Both the position numbers and the translations under genes were made by a program. A stretch of DNA of 34,507 nucleotides from Candidatus Peregrinibacteria bacterium CG10_big_fil_rev_8_21_14_0_10_36_19 (GTDB lineage Bacteria > Patescibacteriota > Gracilibacteria > UBA1369 > LOWO2-01-FULL-3). The DNA is taken from NCBI GenBank assembly GCA_002772535.1, contig PFDP01000012.1, forward strand, positions 11,793-46,299. Reading direction: 5' to 3'. The notes below the pieces were generated by a model that had not been told where the DNA came from, did not search any database, and saw nothing but the letters and a program-made list of their open reading frames with translations. Positions 1 through 26,729 of the stretch are shown here, in pieces (position 1 is the first letter of the stretch; every line of letters starts with the position of its first letter).

Positions 1-683
1 GAGCTTGGATCGTATTCCCAAATTGAACTTGGCACACAATCTTCATAGAAAGAATAATCATTATTAGCATTTTTTGGCGCTAAGGTGATTTGCCATCCTT
101 TATGTAAGTTTTCACATTTAAAGTTCTTGGCTGGGGTTTCACCTTGGTTGAAACCATAAACCGTTAAATCTTTTGTTGAACTAATAAGTCCTCCACCTGG
201 TAGGGTATATGAACTTAGTTGATTAATATCAATACTCTTTGTACCAATATATACTTTTTCCGGACTAGTTACCCATTGTCCTTCTGTTTGTAAATTTGAG
301 TCATATGTTAGGTATACTAATTTGGTTTCATCAAATTTAACATCTGCACGCTCCATAGCGTCATTGAGGTTCTTTGCATTTTCAAAGTGTCCCCAGTGGA
401 ATCCTCCGGCTTTAAGGACTTTTTCTCCTTCAGATTTGTGATTTTTTTCTCCTTTATTATCTTCTTTTGATTTTTTAAGGATTCCCATATTGTCTTTATC
501 CAATTTACCTTGAAATTGTGATGCAACTTCAGGAGGTGCTGGCGGTAATCCATTTGAATTTTCAAACGAAAGGTAAGAGAATACTCCAACTGCAATAAAT
601 GCAGTTATAGCTACTATACCGGCTATCAAACCTCTTTTTGAGGCTGTTGGAGTTTGCGGTGTTAAGAAATTTGTGTTTTTCAT
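1..683 (-). CDS. Membrane-anchored surface protein, partial (tandem paralog of the 692-3067 product)
   Basis: The frame is open without a stop from an ATG at 683 down to base 1, giving 227 residues; the C-terminal part lies outside the window. A short polar N-terminus is followed by one hydrophobic segment (about residues 19-37), then an extracytoplasmic region. It is clearly homologous to the N-terminal 240 residues of the gene immediately upstream: both carry FQGKLD, GILKKSK, a FEN(S/A)KN segment, FNQGETP, KGWQ..LAPKN and NNDYSFYE followed by SSIWEY. The start is 8 bases after the upstream stop, with an A-rich leader and no Shine-Dalgarno. Function is unknown; a surface protein made by recent tandem duplication is the best reading. 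Identity as a real gene is well supported by the paralogy. Confidence 0.85.
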   Translation of the reverse strand, partial: MKNTNFLTPQTPTASKRGLIAGIVAITAFIAVGVFSYLSFENSNGLPPAPPEVASQFQGKLDKDNMGILKKSKEDNKGEKNHKSEGEKVLKAGGFHWGHFENAKNLNDAMERADVKFDETKLVYLTYDSNLQTEGQWVTSPEKVYIGTKSIDINQLSSYTLPGGGLISSTKDLTVYGFNQGETPAKNFKCENLHKGWQITLAPKNANNDYSFYEDCVPSSIWEYDPS

Positions 684-691
684 TTTTGTTT

Positions 692-3067
692 TTATTTATT
701 TATTACTTTCATCTCAGAATAATCCTGAGGAATGTTAAATTTATTGATCCATATAGAAATGAATTGTGCTGGGCTTATAACAATGGTGGAATCATCCTTA
801 TTGTAAAACTCTACTTTACTTAACTGGCGTGTAAGTACTGGAGACATTGTCCCCTTTTCATTTGGCCAAACTAAAGAATAGTTTAGATCGGCAGAATAGT
901 TCTCGAAAGCATACTCCTTGAGTTGACATCTATTATCTTTAGCCGCAAAGCTGAATCTTAAATTACATGAATATAAGCTGTTACATGATGTAACAAAGTC
1001 ATCTGGACATGCGTATGTGCTAATTTTTGCTGAGTTGTATTGAGCAAAATTAACTCTGTTTATATAAAGAGATATTTCCCTATTTTCTATCCAGTAATAA
1101 TATTCTCCTGCAAATGTAGGTCCCTCATTTTTTAGAACCATTTGAGCTGTAGATAGTTGTGGAAATTCTTCTTTAGTAACTTGAGTAGTTTGCACTGGTT
1201 CCGTTACCTTTACAGCAATGTCATTACTCTTTATTGGAGATGCTGATAGATCAACTGTATACTCTTTACCTTTGCTGTCTTTATATTTTGCATTTACAGC
1301 ATAAATATTAAAGTTTAATCCTTCTATAATTGTGTCTTTAATGTCTGCAATGAAAGAAACTGGATAATCTATGTCTGTTGGGATTGTATTATTTGTTTTA
1401 AATGTAATTGTAGAATTGGCTTTTTCAGATTTATCCAGTGTTTGAAAAAGTGCCATATTTAATTTTGGGTTTTCAACTTGGTCTATCAATTCGATTTTTG
1501 GACCTCCAAAGAAACCACTGTTATAAACTTGAACACTAAACTCTGTTAAAGTAATTTCTTGATCAGTGTTGATTTGGAATGTTGATAATAGTTTATTTTT
1601 GTCTCCAGCGCTTACGGTTAAGTTTTTTACCGATACATTTGAAAGTTTTAGAGAAACTTTAGGTCCAGGTGCAACTTTCACACTCATAGCTTCACCTTTA
1701 ACTTGTAATGGTGCTGTTTCTTCCGTGCTACCATTCATGTAAGCAATTGCTCCAATGTGCAATGCAAAGTCTCCTTCTGGGGCAGATTCTCTTATGTCTG
1801 CAATAATACTCAATGTAGTATTGCTTTTTGCCTTAACTGTTTTATTTACATCAACAGTTATAAGTTTTGAATTTTTTTCATCAAATTTAAATGGTTTGCT
1901 AATATCTGCAGTACCATCTGTGATTCTTATATTTTCAAGAGTTGATAGTGTACTGCCAATGTTAATAGCTTGTAGTCCATTTAATACTACATGTATTTTT
2001 TTGAGTTGAATGTCTTTATCAGTATTGTTTGTTAGAACTGTGTCTAAAAATTTTATATCTTTTGTACCAACTTGAACATTCATTGCTTTTGCTGTTGATG
2101 TTCCAATTGATAACGCTGGGCCATTATCTACTACAGGATCTTTTGTTTTATCTGGATTAAGAGTTCCAGTAATTACTTCTGTAATAGTAGCTTTAATACT
2201 AAGTCCACTATTAGTTTGGATTGTTTTGTCTTTTTCTGGATCAGCTGGTTGAGCTGGATCAGCTATTGGTTTTGTATTTATTGGATCGACTTTTTGCTGT
2301 GCTTGAACTACTACTGGTTTCGCATCAAATTTTACCCAGTGAATGTAGTTGTTAATTTTTGTATCTAATTTTGCTGTTGGTACTTGAATAAACTTTTTAG
2401 GTGCACTTTCAGAGTATTCCCAAATGCTTGAAGGTTGTGGATCTAAATTTTCATAAAAACTATAATCGTTGTTCTCATTTTTTGGAGCAAGCATTAATTG
2501 CCATCCTTTTTCAAGGTCCATTGTTTTAAATTCTTTATTTGGAGTTTCTCCTTGATTGAAATTATTAACTACAGCTTTGTAACTTGTAGAAAGTAACCCG
2601 GCGTTTTTAAGAGGTTCCGTTGATAGTTGAGCTTCTGTAAGTTTTTTTGTTCCTACATAAATGTTTTGCGGAGTAGTTATCCATCTGTCTTCAGTTGGGT
2701 AATATGTCATAAAAACAATACTTGTATCGTCTTGTGATACATTTATATTATCAATAAGATCTCTATAATTTTTTGAATTTTCAAAAAAGCCATACACATA
2801 GCCTACTGAATCAACTGTTTTACCTCCAGAAAAAATTTTATTATCGCTTTTGCTCTTCTTTAGAATACCTCTTGAATCTAGTTTACCTTGGAAAGATCCA
2901 GTAAATTCTGGCAATTTTGGAGGTGTATCGCTAGGCCCTAAAGGACTAAAGAAATATACCGCTGTTACAAATAGTGCGGATACTATTGCCAAAACTGCAG
3001 CTAAGTAGGTTTTCTTTTTGCTGCTAACTGCAGGCTGAAACTGATTTTCCGGATATGATGTATTCAT
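692..3067 (-). CDS. Large membrane-anchored surface protein, unknown function
   Basis: 791 residues. N-terminal cytoplasmic tail, one membrane helix (about 20-40) and a long extracytoplasmic part fit a type II anchored surface protein. Residues 50-240 form a domain shared with the following gene. A Pro/Ala/Asp-rich spacer near 260-290 separates it from beta-rich, Ig-like or adhesin-like sequence (about 290-640). The C-terminal 150 residues contain a cysteine cluster (YACPDDF, TSCNSLYSCN, NRCQLK) that could form disulfides outside the cell. I do not recognise a named family. It is the sixth gene of the minus-strand operon that begins at 12008 and follows the 34-aa membrane peptide gene at 3121-3225. 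No enzymatic motif is visible; adhesion or a structural role is an inference from architecture. Confidence 0.85.
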   Translation of the reverse strand: MNTSYPENQFQPAVSSKKKTYLAAVLAIVSALFVTAVYFFSPLGPSDTPPKLPEFTGSFQGKLDSRGILKKSKSDNKIFSGGKTVDSVGYVYGFFENSKNYRDLIDNINVSQDDTSIVFMTYYPTEDRWITTPQNIYVGTKKLTEAQLSTEPLKNAGLLSTSYKAVVNNFNQGETPNKEFKTMDLEKGWQLMLAPKNENNDYSFYENLDPQPSSIWEYSESAPKKFIQVPTAKLDTKINNYIHWVKFDAKPVVVQAQQKVDPINTKPIADPAQPADPEKDKTIQTNSGLSIKATITEVITGTLNPDKTKDPVVDNGPALSIGTSTAKAMNVQVGTKDIKFLDTVLTNNTDKDIQLKKIHVVLNGLQAINIGSTLSTLENIRITDGTADISKPFKFDEKNSKLITVDVNKTVKAKSNTTLSIIADIRESAPEGDFALHIGAIAYMNGSTEETAPLQVKGEAMSVKVAPGPKVSLKLSNVSVKNLTVSAGDKNKLLSTFQINTDQEITLTEFSVQVYNSGFFGGPKIELIDQVENPKLNMALFQTLDKSEKANSTITFKTNNTIPTDIDYPVSFIADIKDTIIEGLNFNIYAVNAKYKDSKGKEYTVDLSASPIKSNDIAVKVTEPVQTTQVTKEEFPQLSTAQMVLKNEGPTFAGEYYYWIENREISLYINRVNFAQYNSAKISTYACPDDFVTSCNSLYSCNLRFSFAAKDNRCQLKEYAFENYSADLNYSLVWPNEKGTMSPVLTRQLSKVEFYNKDDSTIVISPAQFISIWINKFNIPQDYSEMKVINK

Positions 3068-3229: not shown

Positions 3230-5389
3230 TTATGGAGTTACTTTTATAGTGATATCTTTTGTACTGACAGTATTTTCTGAGTCAGTGATTTCAAGCCTTA
3301 CATTGTACTCGCCTGTGCTTTGGAATGTATGGCTAGGCTTAATTTGGTCTGAACTAGAACCGTCACCAAAATCCCAGAAATAAGATTTTACCGATCCTGT
3401 GGAACAGCTTGGGTCAAAGGTGGTAGTAAGTGGAACTTGCCCCTCTGTAAATACAGAAGTGAAGCAAGCGGCTAAAGGAACTTCTCGGACTGTAATTAAT
3501 ATTTCATCTGTATCTTTAGAGTTGTTACTACCAATTGCTGTTACTTTTACTGTATATGTTCCAATTTCAGTATATTTGTGTCCTATCTGTGCACTTCCAA
3601 GTTTTGGGGCTGTGCCATCACCAAAATCCCATTGATAACTTGTGATTGTGCCACCCTGAAAACTAGAACCACTAGCATCAAAATTTACTGTTAATGGAAC
3701 TGTACCCTGTATAATATTAGCCTTTATTTTTGCGGTTATTCCCTGTGCGGCAACATTAACGGTGATAGATTCTCTAGAAGAAAGGTTGTCTGCATCTACC
3801 ACAGTAAGTGTTGTTGTATAGATGCCAGATGCTGAAAAGGTGTGGGTTGTTTTTGGTCCAAACGCATCATCTTTTCCGTCTGAATCAAAATCCCATTTGT
3901 AATCTACAATATTTCCATCAGAATCTGTGCTTCCTGTTGCGTCGAAGCTAACTTTAAATGGAGCCTCACCATTTAGTGTAACTGCATTTTTTTCTATTGT
4001 AGGAGATGTCTTGATAACCGCTTTTGGAGTACCTTTTACGCTGCCAACTTTTATTACTTTCTTAACTTCTCCTTCTTTTCCTTCTTCATCAACTATTTTT
4101 AGAGTTATTTCATATGTACCTGGTTTATTGTAGCTGTGGGATATAGTTTTACTTCTTTTTACCCCGCTGTTGTCCCCCATACTCCAATCGTAGGAGGTTA
4201 TTTTTCCATTTGGTGAAACAGAATCATCTGATTTAAATGTATAATTTTGTCCTACAGTCAGTGCTTCTGGTTCGTCTAAAATACTAATTACCGCAACTGG
4301 GCCCTCTGATTCTTTTACTATAATTTCCTTTTCTGCAGTTGCAGTTTCTCCGTTTGAATTTGTTACCCTTAGAGTTGCTGTAAATTTACCATCTTTCTCA
4401 AATATGTGAGTGGCTTTTTTACCATCCTCTTCAAATTTGCCGTCGCCATCAAAATCCCATTCATAAAGTTCAATTTTATCATCAGGGTCGATAGATTCTG
4501 AGGCATCAAAATTAACTTTTAAAGGCGCTTCTCCTGACTGCTGATCAACGGAAAATATAGCTGAAAGAAGTTGTTTATCCACAATAACAGTTACAGAATG
4601 TGCATCTTGCAATTCTTCTCCAGTTTTTTTGTGTCTTCTAGTAATTGTGAGGACAACATCATATCTACCCTTCTTTTCAAAAGTGTGAGTTATTACTTGG
4701 CTTGTATCTGTACTTCTATCACCGAAATCCCAGTCGTAGGCTATTACTCTATAATTAGGGTCAATTAGTATTTTTGAGGCATCGAACTTAACTTTTACAG
4801 GAGCTTCGAGTGCAATTGTATCTTCAGGATCCGTAATAATTCTATTAGTTGACTCAAGCTTTAGTGTTACATGTTTTGAATCCATGTATAAATATGTAGC
4901 ACCCCATGAAATAAAAAGCACAAAAAGTGCTATAGCTGTGATAATTGTTGATTTGATGTTTTTTCTGCGTAACAGCAAATCCTCCTTTGGGGTTTTAAGT
5001 GCTCTAACAAGTTTTGCCATTGTAAGGATAAAGAATCCTATTGAAAAATAAAGGAAAGCAATGTGGACTATAATTGTGAGTATATTAACAAAGCTGATTT
5101 GGCTTATTCCAAAAAGACTTGCAATAGCGCTTTCTTTGGTTGGGCTAGTTTGTGAGGCTAATACAACTGAAGTAATTGCTAATACAATAAGTATAATGCT
5201 CGTGATAATAACTATTTTTTTAATTTTCTGTTTGCGTAAATTTGGATCAACTTGCTGCTGATTTACATTGTTGGTTTTAATCTGGCCAATAGTTTTTTTT
5301 GTAGGATCAACAACAGGTTGAAATGAAGGTTTTGGCTCTTCATTTGGTTGGTTATAGTTGTTTATTTCTGGTTTGTTTTCTTGTTCCAT
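3230..5389 (-). CDS. Three-helix membrane protein with six PKD domains
   Basis: 719 residues. A proline- and glutamine-rich cytoplasmic N-terminus (1-55) leads to three membrane helices (about 58-78, 99-124 and 147-168). Six PKD domains follow, each recognisable by a W-D-F or W-S-M core and a THTF/HSY turn: near 215 (YDWDFGD), 305 (YEWDFDGDG), 395 (YDWSMGD), 490 (YKWDFDSDG), 585 (YQWDFGDG) and 675 (YFWDFGDG). Two of these have DxDGDG or DxDSDG loops that could bind calcium. PKD domains are extracellular beta-sandwiches used in surface adhesion and scaffolding. The gene lies 5 bases after the stop of the 1545-aa PKD/pilin-like gene, in the same operon. The protein probably projects from the membrane as a stalk; partners and role are inference. 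Confidence 0.9.
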   Translation of the reverse strand: MEQENKPEINNYNQPNEEPKPSFQPVVDPTKKTIGQIKTNNVNQQQVDPNLRKQKIKKIVIITSIILIVLAITSVVLASQTSPTKESAIASLFGISQISFVNILTIIVHIAFLYFSIGFFILTMAKLVRALKTPKEDLLLRRKNIKSTIITAIALFVLFISWGATYLYMDSKHVTLKLESTNRIITDPEDTIALEAPVKVKFDASKILIDPNYRVIAYDWDFGDRSTDTSQVITHTFEKKGRYDVVLTITRRHKKTGEELQDAHSVTVIVDKQLLSAIFSVDQQSGEAPLKVNFDASESIDPDDKIELYEWDFDGDGKFEEDGKKATHIFEKDGKFTATLRVTNSNGETATAEKEIIVKESEGPVAVISILDEPEALTVGQNYTFKSDDSVSPNGKITSYDWSMGDNSGVKRSKTISHSYNKPGTYEITLKIVDEEGKEGEVKKVIKVGSVKGTPKAVIKTSPTIEKNAVTLNGEAPFKVSFDATGSTDSDGNIVDYKWDFDSDGKDDAFGPKTTHTFSASGIYTTTLTVVDADNLSSRESITVNVAAQGITAKIKANIIQGTVPLTVNFDASGSSFQGGTITSYQWDFGDGTAPKLGSAQIGHKYTEIGTYTVKVTAIGSNNSKDTDEILITVREVPLAACFTSVFTEGQVPLTTTFDPSCSTGSVKSYFWDFGDGSSSDQIKPSHTFQSTGEYNVRLEITDSENTVSTKDITIKVTP

Positions 5390-5394
5390 AGTTT

Positions 5395-8300
5395 TTAATT
5401 TAGTGTATCTTTGAATTTAATTTCTTTCAGCACCGAAGCCTTATTACCATAAATATCTTTAATGGTAAGTTTTACTACGGTCTTCCCCCATGACTTTTGG
5501 AAATTAGTTTTCCAAGTTCCTGGAAGGATAGTTTTAAAGTCTTGTTCGTCATCATTGATGCCGTTTTGATTAGTATCAAAATAAATATTCTTATCGATAA
5601 TAAATTCTGCAATTGAACCTTGAGAATCTTTAAAATCAAATGTTACTGCGCCCTCTGTTCCTGTGAGATATACAATTCCATCTGATGATGCCGGTGGGTT
5701 TGTTTTTAAAATTGCTAATAATTGATTTTTTGAACTTGATGTAGTTTGACCTGGTGCTGCACCCAAATCTTTAACCACACCACCTGTAGAAGTGTTTGTA
5801 CCAGGGATAAACTTAACTTCTTGAGTAACACTATCCTCTACTCCATGTGTGTCTATTACTGTTAGTTTAACAAAATAATTTCCTGGCTCTTTATACGAAT
5901 GGATAGGATCTTTTTCTGTTGAATCTGTGTCATTTTTTGGGTCACCATCTCCATCGGAATCCGCTTCAGCAAAAGCCGCATCTGTATCAAAGTCCCAAAT
6001 GTTTTGTTGTATTTCAGAACCACCCACAGTATCTGCTGTTGAATTATTTTTGAAAACAACTTGATTGTTTATAATTGAAAATGTGAAAGCTGCATTTGGA
6101 GGTTCTGTTTTTGAATCGATATAAAGTGTTAGTGGAGTTGAAACAGCCTCACCCCCCTTATCATCAATCACTTTTAATCTTACCTGCACACCTTCTAAAT
6201 TTTTAGCATTATATTTATATTCAATTGTTGATTTAGTGGTTGGAGAATTATTGAAGAAACCATCTCCTTCAAAATCCCAAATATATTTCACAATTTTACC
6301 ATCTGGATCTTTTGAAGAACTTGAGAAAGTAACCTTATCACCTATGAAAGCTTTTGTTGTATCCACCTTGAAAGATGCTGTAGGCATAGCATTTTCCCCA
6401 TTGATTACTTCAAGAGTTGGGAGTTGGCCTTTTTCTAAGAAATCCTTGCTTGATACTTTTTGATTATCAGAATCCTGTATTTCAAGTCCAAATCCATAGG
6501 TTTTCTTATCCCCTTTCTTTCCATTTGTACCAATAGTCATTTTAGCACTTGGAGATTGAGTTATTTGAATTCCGCGAGGATCATCTGGACTCTTAAGATC
6601 GTAATACCACCATCTGTACTGTACTACTTCTCCATCATCGTCTTCTACTCCAAAGGCTTTCAAATTTACTGTAACCGGAGTAACCAAACTACTACTTGAA
6701 GGGTCTGGTACGGCTTGTAGAGAAGAGAATCTTGGTGGCTTTGAAACAACCTTTATCTTAATAATGTCATCGTCGGATAAGCTAGGATTGTCTTGATCAA
6801 AGACCAATAATTTAGCTGTAAAATATCCTGGATTCTTTGGGCTTAATTCTTTGTATGTGTGAGTGGCAATTTTGTTTGAGCTTTTATCTGTGTCACCAAA
6901 ATCCCAACTATATTTAAGGTCACGGCCAGTACCATCTGTATTTTTTGACGTGCTGCCGTCAAAAGTTAGCACATCACTTTTGTTAACTATGATTTCTTGA
7001 GTAAAATCTGTTACTTCGGCACCATTAACGAAAAGTGCTATTTGTGCGATTGGATTCTCATCCCCCCCAATAAATATTCTTCTTTTTATTGATGTTCCGT
7101 TGTCTTGCTCATCATATATTGTAAACACAACATTGTACTCTCCACCTTTTGTGTATGTATGAGTGATTAATTGAGAGCCAGAAATATTTCCTGTGTTTGT
7201 GTCGTTATCACCGAAGTCTATTTTATAACTAGCGTCTGACTTTTCTGAGTATTCGCTATACACTCTGAAATCAACATCAACTTTGCCATTTTTATCTAAA
7301 TTGGCAGTAGCTTCTTGACCATCTTCCCAAGCAATATCGAGAGTGTTTTCTACTGTAATGGTTTTTGTTATTTCATCAAATTCTTCTGTAATACCCGCAC
7401 CTTGAGTGTCTGGATCCGAAACCCTAAGAGTTACATCGTAATCTCCTGGTTCTTTGAATTTAATTAGAGGAGTTCTGTCTGTTAATGAACTATCATTGAC
7501 TAATTCCCATTTATTACCACCTTCAGACTCAGGAGATATAGACCAAAGATAATTTAAACTTGTTTTTTCACCATCTGGATCGTAGCTTTTTTTAGCATCA
7601 AATTTAAAGGTACCTGGCTGATTTTTTAATGGCACTGTTTGCTCAAACAAAGCAATTGGTGGTTTTGAAGCAACAACAATTTCCTCCACAGATGTTGCGC
7701 TCTTGAGATCACCAACAATTGTGAGGGTTGCAATGTATTTACCAGGCTCAGAGAACTGGTGAGGGAAAGAACTTTTACTAGAATTTTCACCAAGATCTAT
7801 TGATTTAGTTGAGCCATCTGGTTGAACTTTTGCAAGTGTCCAATTGTATGATTTTATTTTTCCAGCGGAAGCCGAAGAAGATGTTCCATCAATAATAACC
7901 GGAACTCCTATTGAGATTTGACCATTCGGTTTTAATCTAATACGTGCAGCAACATTACTCACGTCGAGCGTGAAGATTTTCCTATCGATCTCACCTAACT
8001 CATTCATAACCTCCAATGTAATCTTATACTGCCCCTCATTTTTGAAAGATACTTTCTGCTTTGTAAACTCACTACCACTACCAACTACCTCATCGCTATT
8101 ACCAAAATCCCACTTATAACTTGTGGCATTTAATGTTGAAGAAGCATCAAATGTTACTCCTGATTTAGCTTCATCAAGGGTAATTGGAACAAAGTCCTTA
8201 TCTAATTTTAATAAGCCATTATCATAGTATGAAATAACTGGAATTTTTTGAGTTCCTGTATTGATATCAAGATTAATTTTTGTAGTTGGAGGATTTACTT

Positions 8301-10032
8301 TTACAACCAAGCTGCTCAACCCTTCAACATATTTTGCAGGATCATTTGATTTAATTTTTACAGTCGCGATGTAAGTACCTGGATACTTGAATGTACATTG
8401 TCTAAATGCTGGACCATAATCTGCCTTATCACTATTTGAATTTAGAGGAGCATCAATTGGCGTGCTACAACTAACGGCATTTCCAATGTCTACAAACTTG
8501 CCGTCGAAAGTGGCATTACCACCAATTTTAGACCAGTCTATATTTTTATCTATAATACTTCCACCAGCCGGATCTTCCGTATCTAGCACATCAAAAGTAA
8601 CAACTAATGGTGCATTTCCTGCTGTAACATTAGCTCTTAGTCTTGCTATAACCGGTTGCAATTTTCCAACGGCTTCTGAAAATTTTATTTGATTATCTAA
8701 TGCCGCAAAGAGAGCATTTCCCACTATGCTCGCATTATCTGTATCAAGATCTATCTTCCAACCTTCTACAAGAGATATTAGAGAATCGCTTGATTTTAGA
8801 GAAGAAGTTTTATGACCAAATCCTCTCATAGCATCCTCATATATCTTACCTAGATCTCCTTTTTGAACCGCTTCAAGAGTACTTAATGATTGTTTTAATT
8901 GAATAAAGCCTTCGAGCTCATCATTAACTTTATCAATAAAATCTGCCTTCATAGGCTCGAATATCTTTGCAATGCTGCGAGTTTTAGAACCACTTAAATC
9001 AGAAATCTCTGACTGGATAGAAATCCATTTTTCGAACATTTGCTTTGGATAGCGATCACAAGAAGTTATTATGTCGACGTAAAAATTACAGTCAGCTATC
9101 TTACCACTTGTAACATCAAGCATGTCTTGGTTTGGAGAAGTTTTAGAACCCGGATCACTAAAATTAATATCTGTTTCATATTGAACGAGTACTCGTGGAT
9201 AACCTTTTATTTCATCTATATCTCTTTCAAAGACCCTTATTAGCTCGTTGATAGCAGAGTATGTTTTTGAGAATTGTGGAACCTCTGATCGCAAGTTACT
9301 AAGTTGTGTTTTTGCTGAATTTAAATACGACAGCACGTCTGAGCGGTCTACATTTTTTACAGCCTTAATAGAACTAACCACCCCAAGATCTTTAGGATTT
9401 CCATACATTAATGACGCTTTTTGAGATTCACTAATAATGTTTTTTATTGCTTCCTCAGCATTTGCCAAATCTACAAACCCCTTATAAATATTTTCTGCAA
9501 TATTTCTAACTTGAATTGAAGATGCATTAAAGCTTGGCCCTAATGAATCTCCTACTGTGTAGCGGCGATTTTGAGAATCGGTTCCCCCACCAGCTCCACC
9601 AATAATTGTATTAACAAAAGCATACGAACCAAGAATAATAAGTATACCTATAGTTGCGTATGTAATGGATTTTTTACCAGTTTGCGTTTTTTCGTCCTCC
9701 CCACCTGCTGTTACATATAAAAACCCTCCATATATAACAACTATCACGGCTATCATTCCTAAAAATCCAAGAGCAAAATTAACAATTTTTATAATAAAAT
9801 CTTTAAGATCTGTTGAACTTGTTAACGCCGCATTATAACCCTCTGCACTCAATTCGAGCGTGTCTGAATTAGCAAAATCTTCAAAAGTTAATCCTTTGTT
9901 TTGAGAAGAAGTTTGAAATAGACCTCCGATTTTGTCGAAGACATCTGCACTAGCTACTTCCACCCCTATAACAAATGTAAAAAGGGAGGAAACTAGTAAA
10001 GCGGTGATAAGGAATGAGAGTATCTTTTTCAC
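5395..10032 (-). CDS. Giant secreted protein: pilin-like membrane module plus PKD/Ig-like array
   Basis: 1545 residues. The start is GTG at 10032, because an in-frame TAG lies directly upstream. A signal peptide (1-29, ending VASA) precedes a T4SS-pilin-like module (about 75-147) made of two hydrophobic helices joined by a GGFLYVTAGGEDE loop, the same module repeated in the two upstream genes. Residues 165-470 are helical and charged; from about 470 to the end come roughly nine to ten PKD or Ig-like domains (cores such as YKWDFGN, YSWDFGD, YIWDFEGDG, NIWDFDTD). Acidic loops (DSDGDGDPKND near 1380; DTNQNGINDDEQ near 1500) look like calcium sites. It is probably displayed on the surface and anchored by the pilin-like helices. 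Function is unknown. Confidence 0.9.
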   Translation of the reverse strand: MKKILSFLITALLVSSLFTFVIGVEVASADVFDKIGGLFQTSSQNKGLTFEDFANSDTLELSAEGYNAALTSSTDLKDFIIKIVNFALGFLGMIAVIVVIYGGFLYVTAGGEDEKTQTGKKSITYATIGILIILGSYAFVNTIIGGAGGGTDSQNRRYTVGDSLGPSFNASSIQVRNIAENIYKGFVDLANAEEAIKNIISESQKASLMYGNPKDLGVVSSIKAVKNVDRSDVLSYLNSAKTQLSNLRSEVPQFSKTYSAINELIRVFERDIDEIKGYPRVLVQYETDINFSDPGSKTSPNQDMLDVTSGKIADCNFYVDIITSCDRYPKQMFEKWISIQSEISDLSGSKTRSIAKIFEPMKADFIDKVNDELEGFIQLKQSLSTLEAVQKGDLGKIYEDAMRGFGHKTSSLKSSDSLISLVEGWKIDLDTDNASIVGNALFAALDNQIKFSEAVGKLQPVIARLRANVTAGNAPLVVTFDVLDTEDPAGGSIIDKNIDWSKIGGNATFDGKFVDIGNAVSCSTPIDAPLNSNSDKADYGPAFRQCTFKYPGTYIATVKIKSNDPAKYVEGLSSLVVKVNPPTTKINLDINTGTQKIPVISYYDNGLLKLDKDFVPITLDEAKSGVTFDASSTLNATSYKWDFGNSDEVVGSGSEFTKQKVSFKNEGQYKITLEVMNELGEIDRKIFTLDVSNVAARIRLKPNGQISIGVPVIIDGTSSSASAGKIKSYNWTLAKVQPDGSTKSIDLGENSSKSSFPHQFSEPGKYIATLTIVGDLKSATSVEEIVVASKPPIALFEQTVPLKNQPGTFKFDAKKSYDPDGEKTSLNYLWSISPESEGGNKWELVNDSSLTDRTPLIKFKEPGDYDVTLRVSDPDTQGAGITEEFDEITKTITVENTLDIAWEDGQEATANLDKNGKVDVDFRVYSEYSEKSDASYKIDFGDNDTNTGNISGSQLITHTYTKGGEYNVVFTIYDEQDNGTSIKRRIFIGGDENPIAQIALFVNGAEVTDFTQEIIVNKSDVLTFDGSTSKNTDGTGRDLKYSWDFGDTDKSSNKIATHTYKELSPKNPGYFTAKLLVFDQDNPSLSDDDIIKIKVVSKPPRFSSLQAVPDPSSSSLVTPVTVNLKAFGVEDDDGEVVQYRWWYYDLKSPDDPRGIQITQSPSAKMTIGTNGKKGDKKTYGFGLEIQDSDNQKVSSKDFLEKGQLPTLEVINGENAMPTASFKVDTTKAFIGDKVTFSSSSKDPDGKIVKYIWDFEGDGFFNNSPTTKSTIEYKYNAKNLEGVQVRLKVIDDKGGEAVSTPLTLYIDSKTEPPNAAFTFSIINNQVVFKNNSTADTVGGSEIQQNIWDFDTDAAFAEADSDGDGDPKNDTDSTEKDPIHSYKEPGNYFVKLTVIDTHGVEDSVTQEVKFIPGTNTSTGGVVKDLGAAPGQTTSSSKNQLLAILKTNPPASSDGIVYLTGTEGAVTFDFKDSQGSIAEFIIDKNIYFDTNQNGINDDEQDFKTILPGTWKTNFQKSWGKTVVKLTIKDIYGNKASVLKEIKFKDTLN

Positions 10033-10069
10033 CTAGTGATTATATTTATTTAATGACAGAATAGCAAAT

Positions 10070-11044
10070 TTACTTACTATCATTTATTACCTGTACCCCA
10101 CCACTCAACTCCTCTTGAGGTGTTGGCTTAAATTGAATTAGCGTATTTACTACAGCAAATGCACCTAAAGATATCACTAAAGCTAATGTTGCTGATATAA
10201 AAATCTTTTTAACTTTTGCAGTCTGTTCTTCGTTGCCAGCAGCTGTAACATATAGGTATCCACCGTAAAATAAGGTTGCAAAAGATAACGTAGCAACAAA
10301 GCCTGCAATGTAATTTGTTAGAGTCACTATTACAAAGTTTGCCTTTTCAGTATCTGGGAGAACCGCTCCAGCCTCTGGAAATATAACCCCTCTAATTACA
10401 ACCTCAGATAATGCCACAACCCCTAACCCAATAAGGGCATATAAAACTTGATCTTTTGCCTTTGTCAAACCTTCTTCATCACCACCACCGGCAATAAGAG
10501 CGAACCCTCTCACAACCAAAACAAGAACAGCTACAGCTCCCAAAAGAGCCTCAAGGAAGCCTATAATACCTCTAAATTGTTTTACACTTTCTTGGGCATA
10601 AATTTGCACCGTTGCAACATCTTGGAAGGCTTCACCTTGGTCGCCGAAAAACATTTTTCTCACTGCAACATCTGCAAACTGAACCAACAGAAGACCAACA
10701 ACAGCAACAATAAGTGTAGTTTTAGATTTTTCCGCTTCCTCATCACTAGTTATTGTTGTGAGTTTAATTGCATTAATAACAATCATAAGTACTGCAACCG
10801 TGCTTATAACATACCTAAAAAGATCTATAATAAAGAATATCGGACTTGTTAATGTACCTACTCCAGACTGGGCATAATCTGGCAAGGCATCCGGATGTTG
10901 ACCTGTCTCATAAAAACTTGGGAGGCCTGTGTCCTTACCTATATTGGTTAAGTCGTCAATTGGGGCAGCAAAGGCACTATTGATCGTGAGTGCCAAATTC
11001 ACAAACAGAAACGCTACAGCTAATTGTTTGATTATTTTTTTCAT
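10070..11044 (-). CDS. Secreted protein of three T4SS-pilin-like modules
   Basis: 324 residues. A signal peptide (1-27, ending INSAFA) is followed by three tandem copies of a module with two hydrophobic helices joined by a short Gly/Asp/Glu-rich loop: about 60-130 (loop TSDEEAEK), 150-228 (loop GGGDEEG) and 235-312 (loop AAGNEEQ). The last copy, with YGGYLYVTAAGNEE, is closest to the family of type IV secretion pilins (TrbC/VirB2-like) common in Patescibacteria. Normal family members carry one module, so a triple fusion is unusual. It is the second gene of the operon, 1 base after the first gene's stop, and the two products are paralogous. It probably forms a polytopic membrane component. No transport ATPase is nearby, so calling it a secretion system would be speculative. 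Confidence 0.85.
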   Translation of the reverse strand: MKKIIKQLAVAFLFVNLALTINSAFAAPIDDLTNIGKDTGLPSFYETGQHPDALPDYAQSGVGTLTSPIFFIIDLFRYVISTVAVLMIVINAIKLTTITSDEEAEKSKTTLIVAVVGLLLVQFADVAVRKMFFGDQGEAFQDVATVQIYAQESVKQFRGIIGFLEALLGAVAVLVLVVRGFALIAGGGDEEGLTKAKDQVLYALIGLGVVALSEVVIRGVIFPEAGAVLPDTEKANFVIVTLTNYIAGFVATLSFATLFYGGYLYVTAAGNEEQTAKVKKIFISATLALVISLGAFAVVNTLIQFKPTPQEELSGGVQVINDSK

Positions 11045-11045
11045 T

Positions 11046-12008
11046 TTATTCTATTAGTGCGCCAAGATCTGTTAACTTGCTAGCTAAAACAGTACTAACA
11101 ACCGCAAATGCTCCATAAATAATAACAATACCGATAACGGCTGAGAGCAACAATCTTTTAGCCTGCTCCATCCTCTCCTCTTCACCAGCAGCTGTTGCAT
11201 ACATAATACCGCCAATGATAAAAATAAGCACAGCCACAGGACCAACAAAACTAACAATTAAATTGGTAATACCAGCTATCTGATCCACACCAGCCTTCGC
11301 ATCAATACTTGGGTGTACTCCAGTGATACCAGAGTAAACATTTTTATCAATTTTATAGAACACTTTCTCAACGAATATTTGACCAACATAAAGAAGAAAA
11401 AGACCTGAAGCACTATACATAAGCGATTTCTTGTACTTACCCCTCTCTTCTTCATTTGTACCAGATGTTACAAGACCAATTCCAGACCTTACCGCAAACA
11501 AAGTAGCATATGCACCAATTACATACTTAACAAAAGTTACAAAAACCTGCACTTGCCTATCAAAAAGACGATAACGATTTAAAATCTCTTGGGGACTAGA
11601 AATAATTGTCCCATCTTTCATGTCAAACACCCTAGCAAACTCTTGGGACATACTAATTATAACGAACCCAATTATAGTGTAAATTATCGCCCTTCTACTT
11701 TTTGAAATACTTTCTTCATCACCATTTGCCATTATTAACTGCATACCAGTAATGGTTATAAAGAGAATCCCAATCGCAACCATAAGGGCTTTCACATAGC
11801 CAAGAACTCCAAAAACAAGCTGTTCAGCAATCGTTAAACCCTCCGCATCTGGAGGAACAATAATATCACCTTTTTTAAACTCCTCCTTGGCACCATCCAA
11901 AATTGGCAAATTTGCCGCATTTACAATATCAAAATGGTTCACGAAGTGAATGATCACGAGAACCATTACTAACTGCAAACTAGTTTTAAGAAATTTCTTT
12001 ATATTCAT
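11046..12008 (-). CDS. Secreted protein of three T4SS-pilin-like modules, first gene of surface operon
   Basis: 320 residues. An N-terminal hydrophobic signal (about 1-31) is followed by three two-helix modules: about 60-130 (loop MANGDEES), 150-215 (loop TSGTNEEER) and 245-315 (GGIMYATAAGEEER). The acidic loop after a Gly-Tyr-rich helix end matches the T4SS-pilin-like family, and the overall plan copies the next gene. It is the first gene after the TTGAAA/TATAAT promoter; the predicted leader is only about 10 bases (AATGAGAAAAAATAAAT before ATG, counting from the -10), with no Shine-Dalgarno. Likely an oligomeric inner-membrane component; the physiological role is not established. Confidence 0.85.
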   Translation of the reverse strand: MNIKKFLKTSLQLVMVLVIIHFVNHFDIVNAANLPILDGAKEEFKKGDIIVPPDAEGLTIAEQLVFGVLGYVKALMVAIGILFITITGMQLIMANGDEESISKSRRAIIYTIIGFVIISMSQEFARVFDMKDGTIISSPQEILNRYRLFDRQVQVFVTFVKYVIGAYATLFAVRSGIGLVTSGTNEEERGKYKKSLMYSASGLFLLYVGQIFVEKVFYKIDKNVYSGITGVHPSIDAKAGVDQIAGITNLIVSFVGPVAVLIFIIGGIMYATAAGEEERMEQAKRLLLSAVIGIVIIYGAFAVVSTVLASKLTDLGALIE

Positions 12009-12025: not shown

Positions 12026-12054
12026 ATTATAACAAAATTTTAGCTTTTTTTCAA
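12026..12054 (-). promoter_or_regulatory. Promoter of the surface-protein operon
   Basis: On the minus strand TTGAAA (12054-12049) is separated by exactly 17 bases from TATAAT (12031-12026), a near-consensus sigma-70 promoter. Transcription would start about 10 bases before the ATG at 12008, giving a very short leader. It lies in the 99-base divergent gap shared with secE. Confidence 0.75.
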
Positions 12055-25136: not shown

Positions 25137-25212
25137 GGGCCTGTAGCTCAGTGGTTAGAGCAGTCGGCTCATAACCGATTGGTCGAAGGTTCAAGTCCTT
25201 CCAGGCCCACCA
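25137..25212 (+). tRNA. tRNA with CAU anticodon, tRNA-Ile2-like (or elongator Met)
   Basis: A complete cloverleaf can be drawn: acceptor GGGCCTG/CAGGCCC, D-arm GCTC/GAGC, anticodon stem GTCGG/CCGAT around CTCATAA (anticodon CAU), T-arm GAAGG-TTCAAGT-CCTTC, discriminator A and encoded CCA (25210-25212). G1-C72 and the lack of a three-GC anticodon stem exclude initiator tRNA. C4-G69 and C5-G68 and the overall likeness to Escherichia coli ileX favour tRNA-Ile2, whose C34 is modified by TilS to read AUA; elongator Met cannot be excluded. Its 3' end is the probable integration site of the adjacent element. Confidence 0.93.
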
Positions 25213-26729
25213 GAAGATAGAAAAGTGGAATTTAAGAGCTCATCAAAGGGCTCTTTTGCTTTTATAGATGCCACTTTTCCAGCTTCAACATAGATGTTCA
25301 AGAATATCAATTTTGCGATTTTGTCCTTTTTGGAGGCATCACCGAATTCAAAGCTTTCTCTAGCCTTTTTTAGAGTGTTCAAGGTTCTCTCCAAATCCAC
25401 TTTTGTGTCTTCAAGGTTATTTTGCTGCTTTTTAAGTTGAGTTTTTAAAGTTTTAATACGATTTAATAGAAGTTCCTTTTTGTTTTTATAGTGCTGTTTT
25501 TCTTGTTTATCATACTCTGAGCCATAACTAAGAAAGCTATCTGTTAGCTCGAAAAGCTCCCTGTTTTTAAATTTAAGCTGCTCTGATAATGATTTATACT
25601 GAAACTTTGCTTGTACCCATGATTCCTCTAATGCCTTCTTAAGGCCAATCTCAATTTTCTCTTTATTAGCTCCATTTAAAGAAAAACCCTCATCTAGAAT
25701 TGATGTAATGGCATTGATAATTTCCTTTGCTCTTATGCTTTTACCTTTTTCCTCACAATCTTCATTGTCACACCGATAATATAAAAAGGTGTTATTCTTA
25801 CCTTTTGAAGCACCTGCAACCCTTGGATGATCACATTTATTGCAAATCACTAAGCCTCTAAATGGGAAGTCGTGCTTCACCGCCTCTTTAAGATAGTTTT
25901 TACGCCTTTTTTGTATTGATATGAATTCCTCTTCGGTAACAATAGATTTGAAGTCATAGATGGTAAATAAATCGATTTCTAGATCTTTCTGTTTTAATAA
26001 ACCATAGTAAAAGCTGTCGCCAAACATTTTGCTAATTTTTGATTCGCTCATATATTGCTCCTTGTTAGTTCGTGGAGTTTTTTTCTTTAGGACTCTTTTA
26101 TATCCTGAATTATTCAGCATTTCGACTATTTTACTGTCGGTTTCTTTATCAAGCTTCATTTTCCAAGCTCTCTGAATGAGTTTAAAGTTTTTATTATCTG
26201 GGAAGTAAAGACCAGTATCATCGTCCCTTCTATATCCTGGCTTATACTGACCTGAAGATTTACCTTCTGCTAAGCTTTCTACCATTCCCCTTTTTACGTC
26301 CTGAGATAGTTTGTCGCTATAATGCTTCGAAAGAGCAAATGTTATTCCCAATAGCATTTTTCCACTAGCATCATTGATAAATGTATAAGAACAAAATTGC
26401 ATGTCTAGCAATTTTCCATCATCTACCATATGGATAACACGCCCCCCATCAATCATATTTCTTGAAAGCCTATCGGGATGCCAAGAGATAATTCCATTTA
26501 TCTCACATTTATCAATCATCTTCATCATTCTTTCAAATTCAGGCCTTGCGCCTGGCTTTTGAGCTGAAAGTTTTTCTACTATGGGAGCACCAATCACCTT
26601 TAGTTTTAGCCTTTGAGCAAGCTTTTTACATTCAGAAATTTGATCGCCTAATGATCTCTGTTGCTTTTCATCAGCATCAGTTGAGCGTCGAGCATAGATT
26701 ACATATTTGGTGGCGAGTGGTTTGGTCAT
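25191..26729 (-). CDS. Large serine recombinase (integrase)
   Basis: 512 residues. The N-terminal resolvase domain contains YVIYARRSTDADEKQQ with Ser16 as the predicted nucleophile, and WHPDRLSRN near 83-91. A recombinase domain (about 160-290) is followed by a zinc ribbon (CNKC near 302, RCDNEDC near 328) and a coiled coil (about 370-470), the standard large serine integrase order. Such enzymes join attP and attB by double-strand cleavage around a 2-bp core. The last seven codons and the stop (25193-25191) lie in the 3' part of the tRNA gene, so the ending of the protein is supplied by the attachment site. It is divergent from the TOPRIM gene. Confidence 0.95.
   Translation of the reverse strand: MTKPLATKYVIYARRSTDADEKQQRSLGDQISECKKLAQRLKLKVIGAPIVEKLSAQKPGARPEFERMMKMIDKCEINGIISWHPDRLSRNMIDGGRVIHMVDDGKLLDMQFCSYTFINDASGKMLLGITFALSKHYSDKLSQDVKRGMVESLAEGKSSGQYKPGYRRDDDTGLYFPDNKNFKLIQRAWKMKLDKETDSKIVEMLNNSGYKRVLKKKTPRTNKEQYMSESKISKMFGDSFYYGLLKQKDLEIDLFTIYDFKSIVTEEEFISIQKRRKNYLKEAVKHDFPFRGLVICNKCDHPRVAGASKGKNNTFLYYRCDNEDCEEKGKSIRAKEIINAITSILDEGFSLNGANKEKIEIGLKKALEESWVQAKFQYKSLSEQLKFKNRELFELTDSFLSYGSEYDKQEKQHYKNKKELLLNRIKTLKTQLKKQQNNLEDTKVDLERTLNTLKKARESFEFGDASKKDKIAKLIFLNIYVEAGKVASIKAKEPFDELLNSTFLSSGGPGRT
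25203..25212 (+). other. Candidate left attachment site (attL core)
   Basis: AGGCCCACCA covers most of the tRNA acceptor 3' strand, the discriminator and CCA. The recombinase gene crosses it. The same 10 bases recur at 34006-34015. Confidence 0.6.

Follow-up and report, generated by a model that had tools for sequence, protein, structure and literature searches.

The stretch of DNA analysed here (the window; 34,507 nt, C13:11793-46299) comes from a genome of 1.07 Mb and 99% completeness; the relatives that carry a name are almost without exception Candidatus Peregrinibacteria, Peribacteria or Gracilibacteria. Four nearly contiguous genes, P1 to P4, are separated by gaps of 1 nt (P1/P2), 37 nt (P2/P3) and 5 nt (P3/P4) (Table 1), and the coordinates that an earlier note on this DNA had given for the three consecutive pilin-like genes proved exact. 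Promoter-like sites such as the one listed are, as a class, no commoner than in shuffled sequence.

Table 1. Features of the four-gene block, in window coordinates
Feature	Position	Strand	Description
Promoter-like site	12026-12054	minus	TTGAAA-17-TATAAT, extended -10, upstream of P1; a consensus match only
P1	11046-12008	minus	320 aa, signal-like N-terminus and three hairpin modules; PF18895 x3
P1 module a	11610-11849	minus	residues 54-133, divergent; E 1e-21; own clade
P1 module b	11346-11582	minus	residues 143-221, divergent; E 2e-25; own clade but for one spurious short fragment
P1 module c	11076-11309	minus	residues 234-311, canonical; E 1e-26; near single pilins in tree
P2	10070-11044	minus	324 aa, triple pilin fusion; PF18895 x3
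P2 module a	10637-10873	minus	residues 58-136; E 5e-23
P2 module b	10370-10609	minus	residues 146-225; E 2e-23
P2 module c	10124-10363	minus	residues 228-307, canonical; E 9e-24
P3	5395-10032	minus	1545 aa, GTG start, pilin-PKD giant; PF18895 x1 and PKD families
P3 pilin module	9589-9828	minus	residues 69-148, most conserved part of the locus; E 2e-26
P3 helical region	8653-9540	minus	residues 165-460, fast evolving; helix bundle, pLDDT up to 95; 18% identity
P3 PKD array	5809-8652	minus	about nine domains, residues 461-1408; one more, weak, at 1456-1540
P4	3230-5389	minus	719 aa; lysine-rich N-terminus, TM1, degenerate pilin-like hairpin, six PKD domains
P4 degenerate pilin-like hairpin	4880-5107	minus	residues about 95-170; profile-profile match

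P1, P2 and P3 are built of the T4SS_pilin domain (PF18895) but are not ordinary pilins, with three units each in P1 and P2 and a total length of 1545 aa in P3. The Pfam model scored 88.6 bits on P1 (three stretches), 64.0 on P2 (three) and 32.2 on P3 (one), at a curated cut-off of 26.6 bits above which P4 gave no match. A profile made from relatives only, without any window sequence, recovered each of the seven modules (E = 1e-21 to 2e-26) but matched no other gene in the window, and the best value among 600 block-shuffled control sequences was 6e-6. The whole-genome search places the seven P1-P3 modules at C13:21396-23599, and their loops carry D/E-E...K-K. The earlier proposal of seven two-helix pilin-like modules, distributed 3+3+1 over three consecutive genes, is thus borne out by both the family model and the relatives-only profile. 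P1 also scored 52.7 bits (cut-off 40) with NF045849, the Mbov_0395 family pilin-like conjugal transfer protein of mycoplasma ICEs. That model spans 80 positions, a single module, and takes its name from a conjugative element, whereas each fusion protein here has three modules; a plasmid origin of P1 was discarded after tblastn gave no match among 72,556 plasmids. Prepilin N-terminal methylation families, sought as a sign of type IV pilus proteins, did not match P1-P4 in Pfam or NCBIfam at E up to 1.

AlphaFold2 run on the P1 alignment predicted a signal-like helix followed by three helical hairpins (helices 57-93/98-127, 139-181/186-217 and 237-272/277-319) with a mean pLDDT of 70 and a pTM of 0.41; at this moderate confidence the P1 modules are predicted to have the hairpin shape expected of them rather than an unrelated fold. 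The model of the P3 N-terminus contains a signal helix, a hairpin and a helical bundle with good local confidence. Comparison of the P1 and P3 N-terminal models with the PDB by Foldseek and VIA-align gave generic helical bundles, none with E below 0.001; structures of VirB2, VirB5 and VirB6 do not appear among the matches listed, which proves nothing either way. When the P3 helical region was compared with solved structures as a possible VirB5/TraC-type tip protein, the matches listed were likewise generic helix bundles, the best being vinculin (Z 12.6 over 176 residues at 8.9 Å). Searching PDB sequences with a profile of the P1 alignment gave no match at E up to 10. As the PDB matches are generic, membership in the pilin family rests on sequence.

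The stalks of the two larger proteins comprise nine PKD-like stretches plus one weak one in P3 after iteration, and six in P4, so that the "about ten" PKD/Ig domains previously ascribed to P3 was a fair count. Matches of P3 and P4 to PamR (NCBIfam) were rejected as lying far below the model cut-off and within the PKD domains. In profile-profile alignment the P4 hairpin matched the pilin profile over 43 columns, which cover helix 1 and the beginning of the loop, with a probability of 74% and an E-value of 2.8e-5, and 20 column shuffles reached at most 1.2%. Four P4 orthologues gave weak single-sequence module hits (9e-4 to 0.1), and one P4 counterpart elsewhere in the class had a pilin-module score of 4e-4. 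By this comparison all four genes probably carry the pilin hairpin, that of P4 being an eighth, degenerate one.

The block is conserved throughout one order, the Peregrinibacteria, which are tiny bacteria dependent on a host. P1 had a match in 59 of 60 relatives, including all 16 sampled families, and P1, P2 and P3 are consecutive on one strand in all 20 relatives compared (regions from seven families), with P4 after P3 in 19/19 whose contig extends far enough. Conservation of the gene order, on which the earlier note had let its proposal depend, is therefore found in every relative compared. On the opposite strand beside the block, most of the 20 have a NusG-size ORF and a small SecE-size ORF, as secE-nusG lie in the window. 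Module counts are exactly 3-3-1 in 48 of the 53 named Peregrinibacteria-type loci; the remaining five show 3-1, 3, 2-3-1 and 1-2-3-1 patterns, several of them on short contigs. Outside the order but within the class the block is kept with changes: in G405 an additional single-module gene stands between P2 and P3 (2038 aa) and P4 follows P3, another genome has the block divided between two loci (G103), a third has two four-module fusions (G380), four have triple fusions (G396, G292, G219 and G317), and G283 combines two triple fusions with a 459-aa protein in which five modules are fused. In this last protein (L149:6998-8377) the five modules stand back to back with almost no linker. Pilin modules can evidently be covalently concatenated, three to five per protein. 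Among the matches listed for 35 sampled genomes outside the class, pilin ORFs were single-module except for at least one two-module ORF (G075, 219 aa). The premise that single-module pilins are the usual form thus holds outside this class, but fusion of a pilin to a giant protein is not unusual in the phylum, as described below.

A tree of 156 modules, with low support between groups, places P1a, P1c, P2b, P2c and P3a each in one clade holding all 21 members, does the same for P1b but for one spurious short fragment, and splits P2a in two (19+2). Separate clades for nearly every module position imply that the fusions are older than the order. The C-terminal modules and P3a lie near the single-module pilins of the same genome, P3a being grouped with the one at C8:90k (0.908), and the a and b modules are more diverged. 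Derivation of P2 as a simple duplicate of P1 would predict a-a, b-b and c-c pairs; at the low support between groups, these are absent from the tree. Within the order, pairwise identity averages 59% in the P3 hairpin, 51% in P1c, 46% in P2c and 35-43% in the other modules; the corresponding values are 40-45% in the PKD regions and 18% in the helical region of P3.

Single-family searches, together with the reading of selected stretches, located other parts of a patescibacterial (MPF-FATA-like) T4SS elsewhere in the genome. The VirB4 ATPase is a 752-aa protein with P-loop_TraG (C3:208.2-210.5 kb), PrgI (VirB3/PrgI; PF12666) lies at C3:162.3 kb (E 4e-14) and is followed by an ORF that by eye only looks like TrsD, and two VirD4-like frames of 829 aa each lie at C3:54 and 136 kb. 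The block is on contig C13, and VirB4 and PrgI are on C3 without adjoining pilins; other pilin modules include single ones at C3:99 kb and C8:90 kb. TrbL/VirB6 had no match in the genome at E 0.1, nor did P1 and P2 match TrbL at E up to 1. For class Gracilibacteria, PMC12102498 reports VirB6 homologues as absent or undetectable and T4SS components as scattered. At C3:334.8-338.7 kb (L010:12844-16740), four pilin genes lie directly behind the gene of a PilT-family ATPase; one of the four holds two VirB2-type modules, which makes five modules in all (C3:336-339 kb). GspF/PilC-like and prepilin-like genes come just after these, placing T4SS-type pilins in a type IV pilus neighbourhood. A 410-aa protein with one PKD domain is encoded a few genes from the isolated VirB4 (L046:13773-15005; C3:213.8-215.0 kb).

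The closest described systems are the VirB2-like pilins of patescibacterial T4SSs, which share with the block the Pfam family (PF18895), the phylum, the presence of several divergent pilins together and a genome with VirB4 and PrgI. Arrays of 2-11 separate VirB2 genes are reported phylum-wide (PMC12102498), and in Ca. Southlakia epibionticum a T4SS with a pilin array is reported as essential for epibiotic growth (PMC10633639 and PMC12102498); a 2025 T4SS review describes this array as one of six pilins (PMC12857230). In contrast to these arrays, the modules here are fused by threes, the block lies away from virB4 and one pilin bears a giant PKD extension. The accessible text of PMC12102498 describes no multi-module or giant-fused pilins, and the literature covered by the search yielded only arrays of separate pilin genes and no paper on pilin fusions. 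Giant surface proteins, some with PKD domains, have been proposed to serve host attachment in Vampirococcus lugosii, a CPR bacterium, but unlike P3 they have no pilin module reported in the accessible part of that study (PMC8080830).

The combined results suggest that the four-gene block encodes a pilus-derived surface attachment machine of undescribed build. We give a probability of about 50% to the reading in which P1 and P2, as pre-linked pilin trimers, join P3, P4 and single pilins in a VirB4-served pilus or ring, with P3 and P4 displaying PKD stalks for contact. From the observed architecture and its conservation we infer a topology, a mode of assembly, an energy source and a substrate as follows. 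The block would encode one envelope complex of VirB2/T4SS-type pilin hairpins, with all modules in the cytoplasmic membrane, the charged loop inside and both ends outside, an orientation that charge counts alone do not settle; in this arrangement the linkers and PKD arrays would lie outside. P1 and P2 would be covalently pre-assembled trimers packed side by side with each other and with the P3 hairpin, probably joined by single-module pilins from elsewhere in the genome. Fusion may fix the stoichiometry and order of unlike modules, given that divergence has affected modules a and b but has left the C-terminal ones canonical. Packed in this way, the hairpins could make up a basal ring or a short pilus that VirB4 would work, with the hairpins of P3 and P4 as the assembly or anchor part from which long PKD stalks would reach outward to a host cell or neighbouring surface. 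Such co-assembly has several points against it, namely the ATPase-free block, the VirB4 and PrgI genes that do not adjoin it, the moderate confidence of the P1 model and the lack of a meaningful PDB match. As for the functions proposed in the earlier note, a surface machine in a small-celled patescibacterium fits the T4SS-pilin ancestry, and of its possible tasks attachment is the one that the PKD stalks favour. For DNA uptake and secretion there is no local support, as the block holds no ATPase, relaxase or competence gene and VirB4, PrgI and the VirD4-like frames are encoded elsewhere.

A simpler alternative is that the proteins are adhesins only, their hairpins now serving as plain membrane anchors and oligomerisation modules, with nothing polymerised or extruded and VirB4 uninvolved. 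The missing ATPase, the drift of the a and b modules of P1 and P2, and the degenerate P4 hairpin with an extra TM in front of it all agree with this. An anchor, however, need not be the best-conserved part of a protein, and the P3 hairpin keeps 59% identity against 18-40% elsewhere in P3 and remains in a clade of single pilins; its constraint and its grouping with the pilin at C8:90k fit packing against other pilins better than passive anchoring. We regard the adhesin explanation as somewhat improbable. It is also conceivable, but in our estimate decidedly unlikely, that P1 and P2 are pilin-derived six-TM channel-base proteins standing in for the missing VirB6 (and VirB8), with P3 and P4 as contact proteins. 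Such a role would account for a genome that has VirB4 and PrgI but no TrbL/VirB6 match, would agree with the VirB6-less state reported for Gracilibacteria, and would suit triple fusions that are, among the matches listed in the surveys made, restricted to this class. Yet a true VirB6 may exist that is too diverged for detection, the genes are distant from those of VirB4 and PrgI, and neither P1 nor P2 has a sequence or fold match to VirB6.

The fusion could, finally, be a way to express an array, P1 and P2 being polyproteins cut after export into six separate pilins. The arrays of separate pilin genes reported in other patescibacterial classes invite this comparison, and the six pilins of the S. 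epibionticum array equal 3+3. Nevertheless, the A-X-A signal-peptidase motif occurs in 0, 6, 6 and 3 of 21 sequences in the four P1/P2 linkers, giving no consistent site in any of them, the linkers keep sequence motifs within the order, and the module number varies from three to five within the class; we consider processing of this kind very improbable.

Pilin modules with long stalks also occur in another class, that of G305, in which two pilin-fused proteins are encoded side by side; matches to the smaller of them are present in 141 of 144 genomes, and pilin matches are also found at the N-termini of ORFs of up to 5761 aa. Ten loci (L075-L084) encode paired proteins of about 550-880 and 1900-3550 aa, which mostly adjoin ORFs readable by eye as rpsU, yqeY and hisS; the two that were scanned have Big_5 and TIG domains, not PKD. 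Like P4 and P3, the pair joins an N-terminal pilin module to a long Ig-like stalk, with about 600-1000 aa beside about 2000-5700 aa, but it differs in its Big_5/TIG-type domains, in its neighbours and in having no triple pilin fusion alongside. No description of this near-universal pair was found in the literature searched. Anchoring an Ig-like giant through a pilin thus seems to be a device that recurs in Patescibacteria, with stalk domains that can be exchanged. A more far-reaching proposal, which we hold to be unlikely, is that the linked 3+3 pilin trimers form a fixed-order basal ring or short pilus that replaces the missing VirB6-like base and carries the pilin-anchored PKD giants. A contact machine derived in this way from a T4SS would represent a new architectural class, serving episymbiosis, and the other patescibacterial class would have its own parallel version with Ig-like stalks. 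On the question of how uncultured Patescibacteria hold on to their hosts and exploit them, the one genetic study has identified a pilin-bearing T4SS as essential; a conserved operon of threefold-fused conjugation-type pilins and giant Ig-like stalks offers testable candidates for the host-contact machine.

Several further features were also observed. Two tandem minus-strand genes directly after P4 (window 3-683 and 692-3067) have a related N-terminal region in common (FQGKLD...GILKKSK...SSIWEY) and no Pfam match above cut-off; the first of them continues past the window edge into masked bases (N). A 512-aa serine-recombinase-like gene (25137-26729) ends inside a tRNA-Met gene (25137-25212), which suggests an integrated element at about 25.2 to 34 kb of the window. 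On C13 (L009:8273-9924), the C-termini of two surface-type proteins resemble a sortase or CTERM sorting signal, each having (D/E)(T/S)GP, then a hydrophobic stretch and finally a basic tail.
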